From: a virus
Length of the DNA stretch: 25,047 bases
Strand: one strand, 5' to 3'
IMG/VR virus record: IMGVR_UViG_3300031974_004359
Coordinates: 1-25,047 of that record
In this document: positions 10,983 to 19,384 of the stretch, in pieces
Layout of the letters: the number at the start of each line of letters is the position of its first letter
How positions within the stretch are numbered: the first letter of the stretch is position 1
Made by a program: the position numbers and the translations under genes
The notes under the pieces: model-generated
The model's input: the letters and a program-made list of their open reading frames with translations, nothing else
Database searches by the model: none
Told to the model about the DNA's origin: nothing

Positions 10983-11126
10983 TTATCTACCCTGCCCTCT
11001 ATATGCCTTTTTGTAATTTCTACTATTTTTAGATTTTGAAGTTTTGCTCTTAGCGTGAACACCAGGTCTCTTCTTACTTTGAGAACGATATAACGAAATA
11101 CCAAAACCTCCTTTTGCTTTTGCCAT
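10983..11126 (-). CDS. Very basic 47-residue conserved-looking phage protein
   Basis: ATG at 11126 opens a 47-codon frame ending TAA at 10985-10983, beginning MAKAKGGFGISLYRSQSKKR. Fifteen of 47 residues are Lys or Arg and the end is YRGQGR. Such composition suits nucleic-acid binding or packing against DNA. I recall similar basic mini-proteins with a KKRPG...YRGQGR pattern in other phages, but this is memory, not a search. The start has the leader TAATAAATTATGGC, identical to that of gp6 and gp25, which supports this frame over a longer 66-codon frame starting at 11146. It lies between the two-component operon and the tail module. Confidence 0.75.
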   Translation of the reverse strand: MAKAKGGFGISLYRSQSKKRPGVHAKSKTSKSKNSRNYKKAYRGQGR

Positions 11127-11178: not shown

Positions 11179-11709
11179 TTACTTATTCTTATAAAAATAT
11201 TCAAGTATATCCTTCTCCAACATATAATCCATTACGAAGTTATCTCCATACTTAATGCTGGTAAATGTTCCACTATCTTCATCGGTGATTTCTATCACAT
11301 AATCTATCTCATTATAGGTTACTCGATAACTTTCACTTTTTAAGATTCGTTGAATACTTTTATGTTCATCGGTTCTCTCAATAACTTCTTTATCACTCAA
11401 ATCGGGAACATTAAGAAGTTGAGTTACACATTTAGCATAATTTGTTTTAAGAGTATCAACAAAGTAGATTTGATTCATCTTACTCATTAGATACAATCTT
11501 TGTTTGTTATCTAATCCGCCAGCTTTGAAATCACCAGTAAACTGAATGATGGGTAGGTTGAGTAATGCTTCTTGTGTTTCTTCTCTTAGAGTTTTGAAAT
11601 CTACTTTAGAATGTATTTGACTTGGATAGTTGATATCCCTATCAAATGGTAAAGATAGAATATCATAGTAAGTGTAGATACCAACCTTTTCTTCTATCTG
11701 TGGTGCCAT
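11179..11709 (-). CDS. Uncharacterised 176-residue protein
   Basis: A 176-residue protein starting MAPQIEEKVGIYTYYDILSL. It appears soluble and mixed alpha/beta, with no membrane segment or catalytic motif I recognise. A C-terminal part has paired strands (SYRVTYNEIDYVIEITDEDS) and a terminal helix (YMLEKDILEYFYKNK). Two bases separate its start from the stop of the coiled-coil membrane protein, so it could be the last gene of the two-component operon. It could also belong functionally to the tail genes downstream; a T4 gp53-like wedge role was considered but is unsupported. Confidence 0.7.
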   Translation of the reverse strand: MAPQIEEKVGIYTYYDILSLPFDRDINYPSQIHSKVDFKTLREETQEALLNLPIIQFTGDFKAGGLDNKQRLYLMSKMNQIYFVDTLKTNYAKCVTQLLNVPDLSDKEVIERTDEHKSIQRILKSESYRVTYNEIDYVIEITDEDSGTFTSIKYGDNFVMDYMLEKDILEYFYKNK

Positions 11710-11711
11710 AA

Positions 11712-12284
11712 CTACTCTTTTTCAGTTGCATACTTCACACCCATAATCGTACCTACGATTGAGAATGCGTTAGTTAAGAGAATACCAAACATATTACTCC
11801 AAGTAGAACCAATGATTTGTGTATCAGTACCAGAAACCAATGCTAATCCATACATAGCAGTTGTAAGAACACCAACTCCTATAATCACATAAAGTGCAAC
11901 TCTTACAATGGTACTGATTAATTCAAATTGAGTTTTCTTTTGCATTAGTTCCAAATCTTCTAATGCTTTATCTTTACCTTCTTCTGCTTCTTCTTTAAGT
12001 TGGTTTGCTTCTTCTAATGCTACTTTGAGTTCTTCCATCAAAGCATCATTTTCTTCTTGTTTAGCAACTAACTCTTTGTTTTGTTTCTGAACTTGTTTGG
12101 TAACTTGTAATCGTTTTCTTCTTGCCGTAGAATCTTTTTCTTTACATACTTTAAGGTACTCTTCAAACTCCACATCATCTTTTGGTGCTTGTAGAATTTT
12201 TAGAAAGTTACCCTCAACATAAATCTTTTTCTTTTTGGCAACTTCTAACAATACATCTCTTGTATGTTTTGTTATTGGTATCAT
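11712..12284 (-). CDS. Coiled-coil protein with two C-terminal membrane helices
   Basis: A 190-residue protein. Residues 1-50 form a small charged domain (VLLEVAKKKKIYVEG). Residues ~55-120 are a strong coiled coil (VQKQNKELVAKQEENDALME, then KVALEEANQLKEEAEEG). Two hydrophobic helices follow at ~124-150 and ~162-184, with a short loop containing SGTDTQIIGSTW between them. The long charged N-terminus is probably cytoplasmic. The start overlaps the receiver gene's stop as ATGA, so the two are translated together. This makes it the best candidate partner or output of the phosphorelay; the two-helix end is also compatible with a holin-like or channel-like role. Both ideas are inference. Confidence 0.78.
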   Translation of the reverse strand: MIPITKHTRDVLLEVAKKKKIYVEGNFLKILQAPKDDVEFEEYLKVCKEKDSTARRKRLQVTKQVQKQNKELVAKQEENDALMEELKVALEEANQLKEEAEEGKDKALEDLELMQKKTQFELISTIVRVALYVIIGVGVLTTAMYGLALVSGTDTQIIGSTWSNMFGILLTNAFSIVGTIMGVKYATEKE

Positions 12285-12727
12285 TTATAAACTTTGAAAG
12301 GGTTTGTTCTATTCAAATATCCTTTATAATCACTTCTAAATTCTTCTAATCGAGGTTCGATATCATCTGATTTGATAATCCAAAATTGTGCACCTGCTGC
12401 TTTTGCTTTTTCAATTTCTTGATTATCATCTGAAGATGAGATAATACCAATCACACAACCATTGCCATAATCAAAGTTGATTTTTCTAACCAACTCGATT
12501 CCATCAAATGAAGAACCGATAATATTCAAGTCAACAAATACACATTCAGGTCTTTCACCGTTTGGGTCATCAGGAAACCATTCCTTAAATTTTGCATCAG
12601 CCTCATCAGAGGAGTTTAATGCCTCTAAAGAAAGTGTGATATCTAAGATACTACAAGCATCTTCAAATACTAAGTGGAATAAATCTTCATCATCCACCAA
12701 TAAGATTGAGTTAATCATTTCGTTCAT
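12281..12727 (-). CDS. Stand-alone response-regulator receiver domain protein
   Basis: A 148-residue CheY-type receiver with no output domain. Counting from MNEMINSILLVDDED, the acidic pocket is D12/D13 and the phospho-acceptor is D66 in CVFVDLNI. The switch residue is S97 in IGIISSS and the invariant lysine is K119 in FWIIKSD. All key positions are intact, so phosphorylation is likely. I place the start at 12727 because its ATG overlaps the kinase stop as ATGA; a 28-residue upstream extension of the frame lies inside the kinase gene and has no receiver character. Its stop overlaps the start of the coiled-coil membrane protein by ATGA. Receivers of this kind act by protein contact or as phosphate sinks. 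Confidence 0.88.
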   Translation of the reverse strand: MNEMINSILLVDDEDLFHLVFEDACSILDITLSLEALNSSDEADAKFKEWFPDDPNGERPECVFVDLNIIGSSFDGIELVRKINFDYGNGCVIGIISSSDDNQEIEKAKAAGAQFWIIKSDDIEPRLEEFRSDYKGYLNRTNPFKVYK

Positions 12728-13956
12728 TTTATTTTGATTTTTAATTTTGTACCAGAATCTAATTTTTCTGCAGTTATTTTGAAACCATGTTCTTTCAAAA
12801 TTGCGATACAAATATTTAATCCCAATCCTGAGCCTCCTTCCTTTTGTCCTTCTTTTCTCGTATATGGTTTAGATAACTCTAAGAATTCTTCTTGAGTAAT
12901 ACCTCTACCATTATCCTCCACACAAAGTGTAGAATCGTTTTCCATATAAATGGTAACCATCTTTGTACTACTATCGTTATACTTTAATCCGTTTCTGATT
13001 AAGTTATCAATTGCGGTACAAAAGAGTGGTTCGTTCACTTCCATTGTAGGTAACCGTTCGATTTTAACTTGCTTTACATATGATGTAGAAGATAGGTAGT
13101 TTCTAAGTACTTCACCTAAATTAACTTCTGCCATATCTAAGTGAGCATCCTCTTTTACCAAATTTGTAAATTCTTTAACTCCAGCGTAAACCTTTTGAGT
13201 ATGTTTCAATCCTTCTTCCAACATTCGTAAAGGTGCATCAATTTTTAGTTCCTTTACTTTATCATCAGTTAATCTTCTTCTAAGAGATGTTAATCCTCTT
13301 GGCATATAAGTGTTGATACCACTATGCATATCGTGTCGTAGAATCTTTGCAGCGTGTTCCAAATAAGAGTTCTTTTGGTTTACCATAACTTCCGATTCGT
13401 GTTGGATTGTGATATCTGCTGCAATCTTTAGAACTTTATCATAAGTTCCATTTGAATTCTGAATAGGTGTGTAGTTACCAAATAACCAAACCGAACTACC
13501 ATCTTTTGCAACTCTTTCAAACTCACCACTAATGGTTTCGCCTCTTTTTAATTTTTGCCAAAATTCGTGGTATTCTAAACTATCTGCATAATCCTTTGTA
13601 ACCATTCTTCTATGTTGTTTGTGTTTTAGTTCTTTTTCACTACACTTCATTGTGTTACAAAACTTGGAGTTTGCTTCTAAGATGTATCCATCCATATCCA
13701 TCATTACCACCAAATTAGATTTATCAATTGCCGCTAATTGTAAATCAATATTTGCTTCTTTTAATTTAGTGGTACGAATAAAATCATATACCACATAAAA
13801 GAAAGGTGGCATGAAAGCAATAACACAACCATAACCAAACTCAGCAAGGAAGTAGGTAGGTTCACACCATCTCATTACTATACAAGTTTGTACAATAAAG
13901 AAAGTGAGCATGATAACACCAGCTATGCCCAAACATATTTTTGCAAACTTATTCAT
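12724..13956 (-). CDS. Membrane PAS-domain sensor histidine kinase
   Basis: A 410-residue complete sensor kinase. Two membrane helices (~5-29 and ~38-60) with almost no loop outside the cell imply sensing in or at the membrane, or by the PAS domain. PAS/PAC spans ~72-190 (LVVMMDMDGYILEANSKF; EFERVAKDGSSVWLFGNYTP). The phospho-accepting histidine is H208 in KILRHDMHSGIN; the proline common in H-boxes is absent. The ATPase domain shows the N box (AIDNLIRNGLKYND, N318/N322), G1 (CVEDNGRGI, D348) and G2 (GGSGLGLNIC, ~374-383). Everything needed for activity is present. The receiver follows with an ATGA overlap. Histidine kinases are rare in phage genomes, so host origin by transfer is likely, but codon use looks like its neighbours. 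Confidence 0.93.
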   Translation of the reverse strand: MNKFAKICLGIAGVIMLTFFIVQTCIVMRWCEPTYFLAEFGYGCVIAFMPPFFYVVYDFIRTTKLKEANIDLQLAAIDKSNLVVMMDMDGYILEANSKFCNTMKCSEKELKHKQHRRMVTKDYADSLEYHEFWQKLKRGETISGEFERVAKDGSSVWLFGNYTPIQNSNGTYDKVLKIAADITIQHESEVMVNQKNSYLEHAAKILRHDMHSGINTYMPRGLTSLRRRLTDDKVKELKIDAPLRMLEEGLKHTQKVYAGVKEFTNLVKEDAHLDMAEVNLGEVLRNYLSSTSYVKQVKIERLPTMEVNEPLFCTAIDNLIRNGLKYNDSSTKMVTIYMENDSTLCVEDNGRGITQEEFLELSKPYTRKEGQKEGGSGLGLNICIAILKEHGFKITAEKLDSGTKLKIKIK

Positions 13957-13962
13957 TTTATT

Positions 13963-14151
13963 TTATAGTTCAGATTTTCTTAATCCTAACTTTTCAAATA
14001 AAAATTTAGATGGACAAAATTTAGTCCATACTCCAATCTGCAACATTGTTACAACAAATAAAACTATCCACCAATTTTGTAGAAGTGTGGCAGATAAAAG
14101 TACGAGAGACATGAGTAGGTAAACTGCTCGTACCGAAGTCCAATTTTTCAT
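13963..14151 (-). CDS. DUF2892-like small membrane protein
   Basis: A 62-residue protein with two hydrophobic helices (AVYLLMSLVLLSATLL and WWIVLFVVTMLQIGVW) followed by a cytoplasmic KFCPSKFLFEKLGLRK. The N-terminal charged start, helix hairpin and Cys-Pro motif near the end match the DUF2892/YgaP-C layout, a small inner-membrane family of unknown function. The start overlaps the stop of a 36-residue gene (TAATG), and only six bases separate its stop from the kinase start, so it is probably part of the two-component operon. A helper or sensor-partner role for the kinase is possible but not shown. Confidence 0.7.
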   Translation of the reverse strand: MKNWTSVRAVYLLMSLVLLSATLLQNWWIVLFVVTMLQIGVWTKFCPSKFLFEKLGLRKSEL

Positions 14152-14261
14152 TACATTAATTCTAAAAATCCAAAAAATGCAACCTTAATTCTAATCCATA
14201 GTCTTTTGTGAAGTGGTAAAGACTTGAACTCTTCGGTATTGAAAATATCTTCCAATTCCAT
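14151..14261 (-). CDS. 36-residue mini-protein at head of two-component operon
   Basis: ATG at 14261 opens a 36-codon frame beginning MELEDIFNTEEFKSLPLHKR and ending VAFFGFLELM with TAA at 14153-14151. The stop overlaps the ATG of the DUF2892-like gene as TAATG, the coupling seen between established genes here; this is the main support. The first half is acidic, the second half amphipathic with a hydrophobic end that could touch the membrane. It would otherwise be a gap of 164 bases. Function unknown. Confidence 0.55.
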   Translation of the reverse strand: MELEDIFNTEEFKSLPLHKRLWIRIKVAFFGFLELM

Positions 14262-14315: not shown

Positions 14316-15041
14316 TTAGTAAGAAAAGAACTCATCCTCATCGGAATCATCTCTGATTTCACCATAATCTAAATAATCATTTAGCATTTTCTTTTGGTGT
14401 TCTTTCATTACATTTACAACTTTAGTAATATAATGAGTTTTACAATCAGTCATTTCTCTGATTAAAAGATAAAGATGTTTTTTGTTGAAGTTTTCAATGT
14501 ATTGACTTCTTCTAAATAATTCTAAGATAGCATCTGCAATTTGAATATCTCTTTTCTTTGTAAACACCTTTGTTAGATTTTTGTCCCAATACTCTAACAT
14601 CAAATCTTTGAACTCAGAAAATTCATCACCTTGTTGACTTTCGTAAAAATCATTTTGAGGATTCCATGTTTCTGGCATTTGAGATAATAAATCCGTTTTC
14701 TTATATCTTTTGTAATTACCATTATTTTTTAATATTAAATGGTTTTTTGCTATGATTGAAAAATAAGAAAAGGCCCTACCTTTATCTGGTTGATACATAT
14801 GAATTTTTTGTATCATCATTGATACTACTTCCTTTTTCACATCATCCTTTGGAACATCAAAATAAGAAAACTTAAATGTGTTTAATACATTTTCTGCTAA
14901 CTTTTCAAAAGGATATTGAATTCTTTCTTCATATATCTTTGATTTTTTTCGTGGGTCTTTACAATTATTGTATTCAATTATTGCCTCTTGGGCAGGTGTA
15001 CCAAAGTATATTTTGGATTTTTTTCTTCTTGGTCTTGGCAT
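14316..15041 (-). CDS. 55: T4 gp55-like late transcription sigma factor
   Basis: A 241-residue protein resembling T4-like gp55, the phage sigma that directs host RNA polymerase to late promoters. A basic N-terminus (MPRPRRKKSKIYFG) leads into helices and the region-2-like core at ~66-103, with DVKKEVVSMMIQKIHMYQPD and GRAFSYFSIIAKNHLI. The latter is the typical 'G-x-A-F-S-Y-F' sigma-2 helix. The C-terminus is acidic (DDSDEDEFFSY), which in T4 gp55 and gp33 is where the sliding clamp binds; that role here is inference. It follows a small membrane protein under a host-type promoter at 15334-15365, so host polymerase can make it. It likely recognises the ATATTTATA boxes found in this window. Confidence 0.85.
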   Translation of the reverse strand: MPRPRRKKSKIYFGTPAQEAIIEYNNCKDPRKKSKIYEERIQYPFEKLAENVLNTFKFSYFDVPKDDVKKEVVSMMIQKIHMYQPDKGRAFSYFSIIAKNHLILKNNGNYKRYKKTDLLSQMPETWNPQNDFYESQQGDEFSEFKDLMLEYWDKNLTKVFTKKRDIQIADAILELFRRSQYIENFNKKHLYLLIREMTDCKTHYITKVVNVMKEHQKKMLNDYLDYGEIRDDSDEDEFFSY

Positions 15042-16414: not shown

Positions 16415-16571
16415 AATATTTTTCTATTTCATTAGTTAGGTAATCTACTGAATCTGAACTTCCAACAAATGCTCCATACTTTGAATAATATTGAATCCAC
16501 TTATCTTTATCAGAATCAAATTGTTCTTTTAACTGATATATTTCTGGTACATGAATTTTTACATAACTCAT
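16395..16571 (-). CDS. 58-residue protein coupled to the cupin gene
   Basis: ATG at 16571 overlaps the cupin stop as ATGA and opens a 58-codon frame beginning MSYVKIHVPEIYQLKEQFDS and ending EKYYDNKKS with TGA at 16397-16395. It fills a gap of about 150 bases and overlaps the start of the deformylase-like gene by 20 bases. The product is small, acidic-aromatic and helical, with an inner KWIQYYSKYGAFVGSS block. Support comes from the ATGA coupling and complete fill of the gap; no family is recognised. Confidence 0.6.
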   Translation of the reverse strand: MSYVKIHVPEIYQLKEQFDSDKDKWIQYYSKYGAFVGSSDSVDYLTNEIEKYYDNKKS

Positions 16572-16954
16572 AATAAATCCTCTGGGGTTTGTCTGTAAAC
16601 TCTATAACTATCTTCATCAAAGTGTTGGGTCGAAACTTCAAATACAATTGAGTTATCTTCTAATGCAATTAACTGATGAGGCAATCCTCTTTCAATTAAA
16701 ACACTATCACCCTTCTCTAATGTTTTACCTTCCAATTTTCCATCTTCTACATTCAACCAATTAAATTGAAATCTTCCTTCTTGCACATACCAACTTTCTT
16801 TTTTCTTTAAGTGGTAATGCATTGAGAACCTATTTCTTTCTTTTGTGAATACTAATAATTTACCACAATACTCTTCATCGTTGTGAATCCATAGTTCATA
16901 TCCCCAATTCTTTTCTACTCTCTTAGGAGCTTTAATATCTACATCTATAATCAT
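16568..16954 (-). CDS. Single-domain cupin, mannose-6-phosphate isomerase-like
   Basis: A 128-residue single cupin of the type II mannose-6-phosphate isomerase-like group. The leading NWGYELWIHND resembles the 'E-x-x-W-G-x-E' start of that family. Cupin motif 1 gives H46, H48 and E53 (SMHYHLKKKESWYVQEGRF). Motif 2 gives H93 (GDSVLIERGLPHQLIAL). All four metal ligands are present, so it is probably an active metalloprotein. The substrate cannot be told; a sugar phosphate is plausible from the family. Its start overlaps the UvdE stop as ATGA and its stop overlaps the next small gene the same way, placing it in the UvdE transcript. Confidence 0.82.
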   Translation of the reverse strand: MIIDVDIKAPKRVEKNWGYELWIHNDEEYCGKLLVFTKERNRFSMHYHLKKKESWYVQEGRFQFNWLNVEDGKLEGKTLEKGDSVLIERGLPHQLIALEDNSIVFEVSTQHFDEDSYRVYRQTPEDLL

Positions 16955-17904
16955 TCTGCGTAACTTTGTGTGTTTAACAATCCACTATAAGCACATATAC
17001 TTTCTTTTCCAATGAAAGGCATGATAGAAAGTTCTTTTGCTTTTGCTTCTACCATTACATCAACATCAGTACCATATAAGTCAGGTAACTCATTGATATA
17101 ATCTGAATGTGCCTGTGGTTTTAATTTTTCATTCTCTTCATGTAATGCTTTACTTTCTGAGTAATGAACAATAGGTTTAATATTTTTAGGCCATGTTGAG
17201 ATTGCCAGTTTTAGAGCCTCTTCTTCACTCAAATCACCTGTACAAAATTTGTGGTGGTGATAATCAAATACGATTGGGATACCAATTTTTTCGTGTAAGT
17301 ACATTAAGTCTTTTACTGAATACATTGATGCCTTATCATCATTCTCAACTGTCAATCTACTTTTTACCGAATCAGATAGTCTTTGGAAGTTATCACAAAA
17401 TCTATCCATAGCAGATTTCTTATCTCCATAAACACCATTACAATGAATATTTATTTTATTATAGTGAGATTTTTCCAATCCTAATAAATCAAAAATCTTA
17501 CCATGGATTTCCAAATCAGTAATAGTATTCTTTACTACTTTTTCACGAGGTGAAGTAAGTACATTAAAAGGACCAGGATGAGAAGTAATTCTAATTCCAT
17601 TTGTTTTTGCATAATGTCCACATCCTTGTAGTAGTGTTTTGATTCTCAAGTAATGTGGCAGTTCTTCTAAATTATACTCAGATGCCCAAGGAAACATTTC
17701 AGATGATAGTCTGAATAATTTAATTCCATTTTCATTATTCCATTTTAGAATTTGAAACAAGTCTCTTACATTTTCTAATGCAAGTTCTGATGCGTAATCG
17801 ATTCCCCTTTCTTCAAAGGTTCGTTTAATCATTGACCGATTGGTTGTAACTTTGGGTTTTTGTTTACCAAGTGTCATGTTAATACAAGCGTAACCTAAAT
17901 TCAT
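16951..17904 (-). CDS. uvsE: UV damage endonuclease UvdE/UvsE-like
   Basis: A 317-residue protein of the UvdE family, a TIM-barrel metal-dependent endonuclease that nicks 5' of UV photoproducts. The start MNLGYACINMTLG is typical. Later blocks include KLFRLSSEMFPWASEYNL, GIRITSHPGPFNVLTSP, INIHCNGVYGDKKSAMDRF, LTVENDDKASMYSVKDL, IPIVFDYHHHKFCTGD and KPIVHYSES. These carry the His, Glu and Asp metal ligands expected along the barrel. Length is normal and intact. It is the first gene behind a near-perfect Bacteroidota promoter (17931-17962) and leads a six-gene run, so early repair of phage DNA is likely. Confidence 0.92.
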   Translation of the reverse strand: MNLGYACINMTLGKQKPKVTTNRSMIKRTFEERGIDYASELALENVRDLFQILKWNNENGIKLFRLSSEMFPWASEYNLEELPHYLRIKTLLQGCGHYAKTNGIRITSHPGPFNVLTSPREKVVKNTITDLEIHGKIFDLLGLEKSHYNKINIHCNGVYGDKKSAMDRFCDNFQRLSDSVKSRLTVENDDKASMYSVKDLMYLHEKIGIPIVFDYHHHKFCTGDLSEEEALKLAISTWPKNIKPIVHYSESKALHEENEKLKPQAHSDYINELPDLYGTDVDVMVEAKAKELSIMPFIGKESICAYSGLLNTQSYAE

Positions 17905-17968: not shown

Positions 17969-19384
17969 TTAATAAGTTTTAGTTTCAAAGTCTGTTGGGT
18001 ACGAAGTATCCTTTCCATTTTTAATATATGTCAACCAATAGTTTACTGCATTTTGGTTGTTTATCCATTTACTTCTATCCCCCCAATTAAAGTTTGGTTT
18101 TGCATAATATGGTTTCTGAGTCTTTGCATAAAGTGCACGTTTAGATGATTGTGGTCTAAACTCATCTATCAACCCATCACCAGTATTGTCATACCCATCA
18201 ATAGTTCCATCCCCATCTAAATCAATTGCCCTCCTTTTTGTATCTTTTTTTAAGTTAGAAAGTTCATCATCTATTGTTTCCGAAGTGTCAACTTTTTTTT
18301 TATAATCTTCTGCTGCTTGTTTGAGTTCTTCGTTGGGTTCTGATTCTTTTTCAGATTCTTCTACAATTTTTGAAATATCTGTTGGTGATAAATCTTCAAT
18401 ACTAAATTCTTCGTTTGCTAATTCATCTTCAAAGGATGAACCTAACTCATTTTCTGAATCAAATTGATTTCGAAAATCTGCCATTTCTTCTTCAGTCCAA
18501 AAACCATCATCTTGGTCGTTATCTTGGTCGTTATCTTGGTCGGTTTCACCATAGAGTTCTCGTTTCTCAACTACCTTCTTTTTATCGGATTCACCTTTAT
18601 CGATTTTCAAAGCATTGTTAAATGCTACAACCAATGCAACTGCTAGTGGGTCGAATACAAATATAATAATTAAAATAAACCAATTGATAATTTGGTCCAT
18701 CGGTTTATCTAATAATCCACTAAGATATTGTAGAGGTCCTAACTCTGATGATACTTCAGTATCAGTATCTAAATCTAAAATCTTTAACTGAATAGATTGT
18801 AGTGAATCTGCTGCTACTTCTCTTTTTGCTTGAACTTCTTTTCTATTCTCTTCCTCAACTGCTATCCTTTGTTGTGATAATCTAAGTTCGGTTGTTGAGA
18901 TTGTTTGTCTAAATCCAGTTGTTGAAGTTGTATCTCTAACTTGAATTGAACTTGCTTTAGCATTTGAAAGAGTTGCAATATTATCGGATATTCTTGATAA
19001 CTCAACATCATATCTTGCAACATCATCTGCCCAAAACTTTTCTTTTTGTTGTAAAAAGGTTCTTTGTTTTTCAGTTATAGAATAGATGTTGAATGTATCT
19101 TGGAATGCTGCTGTTAGGAATCCATAGATACCTAATGAAGTAATCAGAATCAATATCACTACACCAATTGATAAATAAATTCTAAATACTTTATTTATTT
19201 TTTCCCAATAGTTGTATAGGTAACCTGCGGTTATTAATTTGGCTGCCTCTAAAGAACTTGCCATTAAAATTACCGATAGTGATGCTCCAGCAAATAATTT
19301 AGATAAACCACTTACTGAAAAGAATGCTGCATTAAATGCTACAAACAATGCAGACAAACCCAATAACAAAGTTCTGAATTTCAT
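17969..19384 (-). CDS. Large multi-helix membrane protein with calcium-loop-like repeats
   Basis: A 471-residue membrane protein. Three helices lie near the N-terminus (~5-25, 32-56, 68-92), then a coiled-coil domain (~100-205), then a fourth helix (~233-257, WFILIIIFVFDPLAVALVVA). The rest (~260-471) is acidic and soluble. It contains a DQDNDQDNDQDD repeat (281-293) and DLDGDGTIDGYDNTGDGLID (388-407), two tandem Asp-rich loops like those of EF-hand, dockerin or thrombospondin type 3 calcium sites. The end is aromatic and basic. It has the clearest Shine-Dalgarno site in the window (AAAGGAG before ATG 19384). Helix count and layout recall DUF4407-like phage membrane proteins, unverified. It may reshape the host envelope or sense ions; both are inference. 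Confidence 0.8.
   Translation of the reverse strand: MKFRTLLLGLSALFVAFNAAFFSVSGLSKLFAGASLSVILMASSLEAAKLITAGYLYNYWEKINKVFRIYLSIGVVILILITSLGIYGFLTAAFQDTFNIYSITEKQRTFLQQKEKFWADDVARYDVELSRISDNIATLSNAKASSIQVRDTTSTTGFRQTISTTELRLSQQRIAVEEENRKEVQAKREVAADSLQSIQLKILDLDTDTEVSSELGPLQYLSGLLDKPMDQIINWFILIIIFVFDPLAVALVVAFNNALKIDKGESDKKKVVEKRELYGETDQDNDQDNDQDDGFWTEEEMADFRNQFDSENELGSSFEDELANEEFSIEDLSPTDISKIVEESEKESEPNEELKQAAEDYKKKVDTSETIDDELSNLKKDTKRRAIDLDGDGTIDGYDNTGDGLIDEFRPQSSKRALYAKTQKPYYAKPNFNWGDRSKWINNQNAVNYWLTYIKNGKDTSYPTDFETKTY
18509..18544. repeat. Three tandem copies of a 12-bp unit
   Basis: The plus strand repeats ATCTTGGTCGTT twice and then once more with one change near its end (ATCTTGGTCGGT). 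In the membrane-protein gene it encodes the DQDN repeat, so copy-number changes stay in frame and would only lengthen the acidic linker. Confidence 0.85.

Follow-up and report, generated by a model that had tools for sequence, protein, structure and literature searches.

In bacterial two-component systems, single-domain receivers such as CheY and DivK act by protein contact. Phage lysis is usually pictured as a clock set by the build-up of holin, and the sensing of superinfection by T4 is the classic exception. Here we have analyzed a group of genes from a virus record of the IMG/VR database (IMGVR_UViG_3300031974_004359, positions 1 to 25,047; this whole stretch of 25,047 bases is called the window below) that encodes, among others, a membrane histidine kinase, a stand-alone receiver and a coiled-coil membrane protein (CCTM). 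The kinase and the receiver are textbook parts, and what is new is a whole viral relay with its own proposed membrane effector. On balance, we favor the reading that this cassette is a modular viral relay from sensor to membrane, which probably times lysis according to the redox, energy or light state of the cell.

The cassette resembles the CheY/DivK-type systems in that it contains a HisKA/HATPase-type kinase and a receiver without output domain, with the catalytic residues present; unlike them, it is encoded by a phage, and in place of a motor or another kinase its fixed partner is a coiled-coil membrane-hairpin protein. With intramembrane-sensing kinases such as SaeS (PMC4388633), it shares the two transmembrane (TM) helices, the very short outer loop and the small membrane proteins encoded nearby, whereas most of the cassette kinases carry at least one cytoplasmic PAS domain and no DNA-binding regulator serves as output. 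If our reading is right, it would also be comparable to the lysis inhibition of T4 (RI/RIII antiholins, T holin; PMC6832632), in that a signal reaches a membrane lysis protein, although no sequence relation was found and T4 uses neither a kinase nor a receiver. The nearest proposals to the present cassette concern curli-pore cassettes, likewise found in marine phages: the curli-pore genes are preceded by a histidine kinase in some pelagiphages (PMC9599517), and the pore of phage Melnitz has been proposed for regulated lysis (PMC9004378). Unlike the cassette described here, they use CsgG/CsgF and do so without the receiver-CCTM trio. The viral rhodopsins in the papers that we have found belong to giant viruses of eukaryotes (OLPVRII; PMC6821725, PMC7659345). 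The rhodopsin present in some cassettes has the same type-1 fold, but its carriers are contigs of tailed phages, its gene forms part of a kinase-receiver operon, and Gln occupies the proton-donor position. In the open-licence literature on phage kinases, phage rhodopsins and PAS domains in lysis cassettes, we found no virus that encodes such a whole relay in lysis loci together with a membrane effector of its own.

Gene content, conservation and distribution of the cassette

The cassette of the window comprises five head-to-tail genes, all on the minus strand, which encode a mini-protein, a small membrane protein, the kinase, the receiver and CCTM. They are joined in this order by TAATG, 6 bases, an ATGA overlap and a second ATGA overlap. 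Their features, and the gene that follows them, are these:

14151-14261, minus strand: mini-protein of 36 residues (MELEDIFNTEEF...), optional first gene of the cassette, read from the open reading frame; 48 homologues cluster among the relative loci.
13963-14151, minus strand: small membrane protein of 62 residues, YgaP/DUF2892-like by a weak match, optional accessory.
12724-13956, minus strand: membrane sensor histidine kinase of 410 residues, with two TM helices and PAS, DHp and ATPase domains (Pfam).
13387-13725, minus strand: PAS sensor domain of the kinase, an exchangeable module whose closest solved sequences are MmoS and Aer.
13333-13335, minus strand: codon of the predicted phospho-accepting H208, an invariant alignment column.
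12281-12727, minus strand: stand-alone receiver of 148 residues, without output domain (Response_reg).
12530-12532, minus strand: codon of the predicted phospho-acceptor D66, an invariant alignment column.
11712-12284, minus strand: CCTM of 190 residues, proposed effector, with an N-domain, a long coiled coil running into TM1, and then TM2 (order in the loci, model and alignment).
12069-12284, minus strand: N-domain of CCTM and start of its coiled coil (residues 1-72), predicted receiver-fed input from its homology to the N-terminus of a bacterial kinase.
11730-11921, minus strand: TM hairpin of CCTM (residues 122-185), predicted output from its conservation and its PAS-fused form.
11179-11709, minus strand: protein of 176 residues, encoded 2 bases after CCTM; it has 46 homologues and occupies this place in some members of the family only.

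A previous sequence-only reading of this DNA had described a complete overlapping five-gene operon with intact catalytic residues, and the coordinates, junctions, Pfam matches and alignments agree with that description. The cassette is real, and only the range assigned to it (12281-14261) was too short, since it omits CCTM (11712-12284), which the same reading had included in its text. In Pfam, the kinase matched HATPase_c (E 1.4e-14) and PAS_3 (2.1e-11), both over the cut-off, and the receiver matched Response_reg just under it (8.6e-7; 29.6 bits vs 30.2). The name DUF2892-like given earlier to the small membrane protein corresponds to a weak match (YgaP-like_TM, 0.046), under the Pfam cut-off. 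Family searches with the 176-residue follower protein gave no convincing match.

The H, N, G1 and G2 boxes of the kinase and the Asp, Lys and Ser residues of the receiver that characterize two-component systems are intact. H208, the N box and both G boxes are invariant in an alignment of 16 diverse relatives, and so are D12, D13, D66, S97 and K119 of the receiver, the window protein being 77-91% identical to those of 15 diverse relatives. The ratios of nonsynonymous to synonymous substitution (dN/dS) of the kinase, the receiver and CCTM are mostly 0.02-0.13, with two values near 0.2 that come from one divergent pair, and the three genes are under purifying selection. The earlier argument that conserved catalytic residues speak against decay was therefore well founded, the invariant residues being accompanied by these low ratios and by a fixed gene order. 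The existence of homologues in two Bacteroidetes genomes might suggest that these are captured host genes without a selected function in the phage; the same low dN/dS, invariant residues and fixed order, found over hundreds of contigs, refute this explanation, to which we give practically no credit.

Once duplicates were removed and two Bacteroidetes chromosomal loci were left out, the kinase directly precedes the receiver in all 157 loci with room for it, and CCTM directly follows the receiver in all 137. The comparison of gene order among relatives, which had been proposed as a check, has thus yielded a constant kinase-receiver-CCTM order, and because order and spacing recur in relatives, the cassette is not a product of chance. 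Among the flanking membrane genes that had been taken as parts of the operon, CCTM keeps this status, whereas many relatives lack the small membrane protein and many lack the mini-protein, so that neither was retained as essential. The core consists of the kinase, the receiver and CCTM; the mini-protein, the small membrane protein and the 176-residue follower are optional. The genomic surroundings of the trio vary widely among relatives, and therefore the three genes travel together among unlike phages.

More than 500 IMG/VR contigs contain the cassette, and two scans of this collection gave at least 593 and at least 541 confirmed kinase relatives. In a set of 50,697 phage records, the receiver, CCTM and the rhodopsin had no match, and the kinase and its PAS gave partial generic matches only; no pelagiphage record of the phage collection matched the window kinase, and CCTM was not found in plasmids. 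Close relatives of the kinase were present in three of the 84,980 bacterial and archaeal species genomes (L205-L207), a fourth match being distant (24%). The cassette is chiefly a virus system, of uncultured aquatic phages whose hosts are likely Bacteroidota, and the lack of cultured carriers explains why it had gone unnoticed.

CCTM, its fused forms and the exchangeable sensors

The alignment divides CCTM into an N-domain, a coiled coil that differs in length among members and a hairpin with a nearly unchanging second helix (17 of the 23 residues from W162 to K184 do not vary). The structural model presents a single helix from the coiled coil through TM1, followed by a return helix, and it is reliable in local shape only, because its mean predicted local distance difference test (pLDDT) is 82 and its predicted template modeling score (pTM) is 0.35. 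The genes L267:3150-3806 and L285:4569-5225 encode a CCTM with its N-domain, and their contigs, of 75 and 178 kb, gave no receiver.

Two kinds of fusion bear on the wiring of CCTM. In a Bacteroidetes genome (L205), the gene placed after the kinase and the receiver encodes the CCTM N-domain and coiled coil and ends in a histidine kinase, with no hairpin; the CCTM N-domain matches the N-terminus of this kinase with an hhalign probability of 98.9 (E 2e-17), suggesting that the N-domain serves as an input module. The other kind was found in three virus contigs, where one protein joins PAS, coiled coil and hairpin:

L300:2039-2815: PAS-coiled coil-hairpin protein.
L301:4234-5010: PAS-coiled coil-hairpin protein.
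L302:1736-2521: PAS-coiled coil-hairpin protein.

The PAS of this fusion is 40% identical to that of the window, and the rest is 61% identical to residues 73-190 of the window CCTM, suggesting that the PAS signal ends at the hairpin. The two neighbors with which the fused gene overlaps are a small TM gene and, at its opposite end, a GH19 endolysin-type gene. A receiver was not found in these contigs, which are fragments (the longest of 29.8 kb). Taken with the anatomy of the protein, the fusions point to CCTM as the output of the relay and to the hairpin as the output of the phage. The earlier proposal that the receiver signals to the coiled-coil membrane protein is most likely correct, considering that no viral relative with sufficient flank lacks CCTM and that there are two domain fusions, and we infer this link strongly.

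The bacterial fusion also raises the question of whether the receiver or the kinase feeds host two-component pathways, rewiring host transcription, given that single-domain receivers can act in phosphorelays and that a second kinase follows the nearest bacterial homologue. However, the phage protein in that position is a membrane hairpin without kinase domain, the pairing is invariant, and among 395 Bacteroidota genomes the N-domain appeared solely in the one from which the query came, so that we regard this possibility as very improbable. Both CCTM domains are uncommon in bacteria, the hairpin having given a single weak partial match.

The sensor is the modular part of the cassette and the output is the fixed part. 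In pairwise comparisons of 108 cassettes, the sensor half averages 45% identity, the kinase half 71%, the receiver 82% and the hairpin 66%. The cassette DNA of L115 and L118 is about 92-100% identical except in the PAS (45-57%), and therefore the sensor alone has been recently replaced by recombination. Some freshwater-type kinases have several PAS domains or a GAF-like region (judged by eye), and 10 of 138 kinases have no room for a PAS. The small membrane protein is encoded upstream of 9 of 10 PAS-less, 40 of 113 one-PAS and none of 15 multi-PAS kinases (raw counts, kinship ignored), a distribution that fits a helper sensor. The closest solved sequences to the window PAS are MmoS (1.7e-13) and Aer (6.3e-7), both of them flavin adenine dinucleotide (FAD) redox sensors. 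Redox or ligand sensing through this PAS, as suggested in the sequence-only reading, is plausible.

Sequence, alignment and hydropathy agree in that the window kinase has two TM helices and a short extracytoplasmic linker, with about 10 residues between the helices, as in intramembrane-sensing kinases; these have no cytoplasmic sensor, and the window kinase was not assigned to them because it has a PAS. The topology is also relevant to the idea that the cassette responds to secondary adsorption or superinfection by bringing about superinfection exclusion or a T4-like lysis inhibition. T4 links the superinfection signal to its holin via the RI antiholin (PMC6832632) and the window phage has T4-type tail genes, but a kinase almost without periplasmic domain could hardly detect an incoming phage, and the sensors are cytoplasmic PAS or GAF-like domains or a rhodopsin, which makes this idea improbable. 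No homologues of RI, RIII or T turned up in the family scans, none of which was aimed at them.

A type-1 rhodopsin gene is located between the genes of a 4-TM coiled-coil protein and CCTM in L058, L059 and L060/L061:

L058:12170-12751: rhodopsin gene inside the cassette.
L059:12165-12746: rhodopsin gene inside the cassette.
L060:7547-8125: rhodopsin gene inside the cassette.

The Bac_rhodopsin scores are 51.5 and 46.6 bits vs a cut-off of 24.6, the alignment with proteorhodopsin gave 1e-9, and the best 47 fold matches are all rhodopsins, OLPVRII being the first (low-confidence model; E-values of 0.004 or worse). The Schiff-base Lys, the counter-ion Asp residues (TM7 D-x-x-x-K was seen) and the TM6 Trp/Pro are all kept. 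Gln replaces the proton donor of proteorhodopsin, a change that would favor sensing over pumping without proving it. Tail sheath, portal, head and baseplate genes identify the 297-kb carrier as a tailed phage. A rhodopsin profile scan of IMG/VR retrieved just these four contigs, and therefore light input would be a rare variant. The 297-kb phage also encodes a TonB-dependent-receptor-like protein of 852 residues (L224:8150-10708), and a rhodopsin-carrying contig encodes a GlnII-type glutamine synthetase (L217:14795-15874; 408 bits vs a curated cut-off of 500).

Neighboring lysis genes and the proposed relay

Proximity to lysis genes was counted in 39 lineages with enough flank, measuring the distance from the receiver. 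A holin or endolysin-type gene lies within 5 kb in 23 of them, and within 2 kb in 22 of these. The neighbors found in relatives include PF05105 holins, peptidoglycan (PG)-binding amidases, M15 peptidases, DUF5675 proteins and GH19 enzymes. Family c54, unnamed in Pfam, was counted as a lysin because one member is fused to a PG-binding domain. A neighboring gene of relatives (e.g., L018:8905-9327) matched Phage_holin_4_1 with 22.3 and 22.7 bits in two members vs a gathering threshold of 22.2, a third member being below it (20.7), and the match in G010 reached 34.7 bits. Lysis had been one of the outputs suggested earlier, and it gains support from these neighborhoods and from the fused PAS-hairpin protein encoded beside an endolysin. 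Control of lysis by the cassette is likely, though unproven.

Several observations weigh against it. In 15 of the 39 lineages, the window clade included, there is no lysis gene within reach, and one more lineage has it at 5-10 kb only; no lysis gene was detected beside the window's own cassette. A DUF5675 enzyme is encoded about 15-20 kb from the cassette in three podovirus-like contigs, and the endolysin of the 297-kb rhodopsin jumbo phage is about 40 kb away. One lineage has CCTM, and the receiver was not found in its 75-kb and 178-kb contigs. Neither sequence nor fold searches related CCTM significantly to holins or antiholins: its best holin match was Phage_holin_9 (E 0.014, in one of 16 members), the PDB search gave no significant match, and the top Foldseek matches were generic helical structures, none of them significant. 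Since no holin family matches, CCTM was not filed as a holin. Finally, lysis and other late genes are often clustered, and their co-location could reflect late expression only.

These observations leave some room for the same kinase-receiver-CCTM relay having another output, i.e., that during infection the hairpin modulates the membrane of the host or the energetics of that membrane (e.g., ion leak, handling of envelope stress), lysis timing not being involved and the lysis genes being near as fellow late membrane genes. The lineages unlinked to lysis genes, the window among them, the accessory membrane proteins without lysis homology and the redox type of the PAS relatives are consistent with such an output. 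Nevertheless, the tight distances (22 lineages at no more than 2 kb, one at 5-10 kb) and the fused PAS-hairpin protein, whose neighbors are a small TM protein and an endolysin, fit lysis better, and we consider membrane adjustment alone unlikely.

In the lysis-timing relay that we favor, the membrane histidine kinase would read the cell through a swappable sensor (one PAS, several PAS, a GAF-like domain or none), perhaps with help from the small membrane proteins and also, in a few of the phages, from the rhodopsin. The kinase would autophosphorylate at H208 and then transfer the phosphate to D66 of the receiver. The phosphorylated receiver would bind the N-domain of CCTM, and a conformational change would pass down the coiled coil into the conserved two-helix membrane hairpin, which may either open the membrane itself or restrain or release a phage holin. 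The timing of lysis would thereby track the redox, energy or light state. A more specific version, which we advance only tentatively, is that of a dedicated lysis switch, in which redox, small-molecule or light sensors have been recombined onto a conserved phosphorelay and the receiver-gated hairpin opens the membrane or controls the holin, the rhodopsin being a daylight input and the PAS-hairpin protein a collapsed relay.

If this is true, numerous aquatic phages adapt their action on the cell to the state that they find it in, by means of a widespread virus-encoded phosphorelay, and with the rhodopsin in the same operon a dependence of phage infection on light could be tested directly. Confirmation of lysis control would reveal a new kind of phage lysis regulation. 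The cassette also offers a receiver-driven membrane module, a natural platform for sensor swapping and a list of residues to mutate.

Other genes of the window and its relatives

The window also encodes the T4-type baseplate proteins gp6 and gp25, PhoH and a deoxycytidine monophosphate (dCMP) deaminase. The upstream gene at 14316-15041, encoding 241 residues, was considered as a late sigma factor; the PHROGs and PDB profile searches were empty, and the name was not used as evidence. Matches to the late promoter motif TATAAATA were no commoner than in shuffles, and the six matches to the Bacteroidota promoter motif, vs 3.45 expected, were not significant. A defence-system model search gave a weak coiled-coil match and nothing else.

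An endonuclease gene (phrog_8420) at 16951-17904 has a Bacteroidota-type promoter match 27 bases upstream, and it is overlapped by a cupin/cysteine-dioxygenase-like gene at 16568-16954. A very basic protein of 47 residues (KKRPGVHAKSKTSKSKNSRNYKKAYRGQGR) is encoded at 10983-11126, and its position is kept among the window-clade phages. In the relative L216 (449-3873), five tandem paralogous proteins of 180-240 residues, with short internal repeats, are encoded just upstream of an endolysin. The membrane protein of 471 residues encoded at 17969-19384 of the window has relatives that adjoin a holin in many other cassette-bearing phages.

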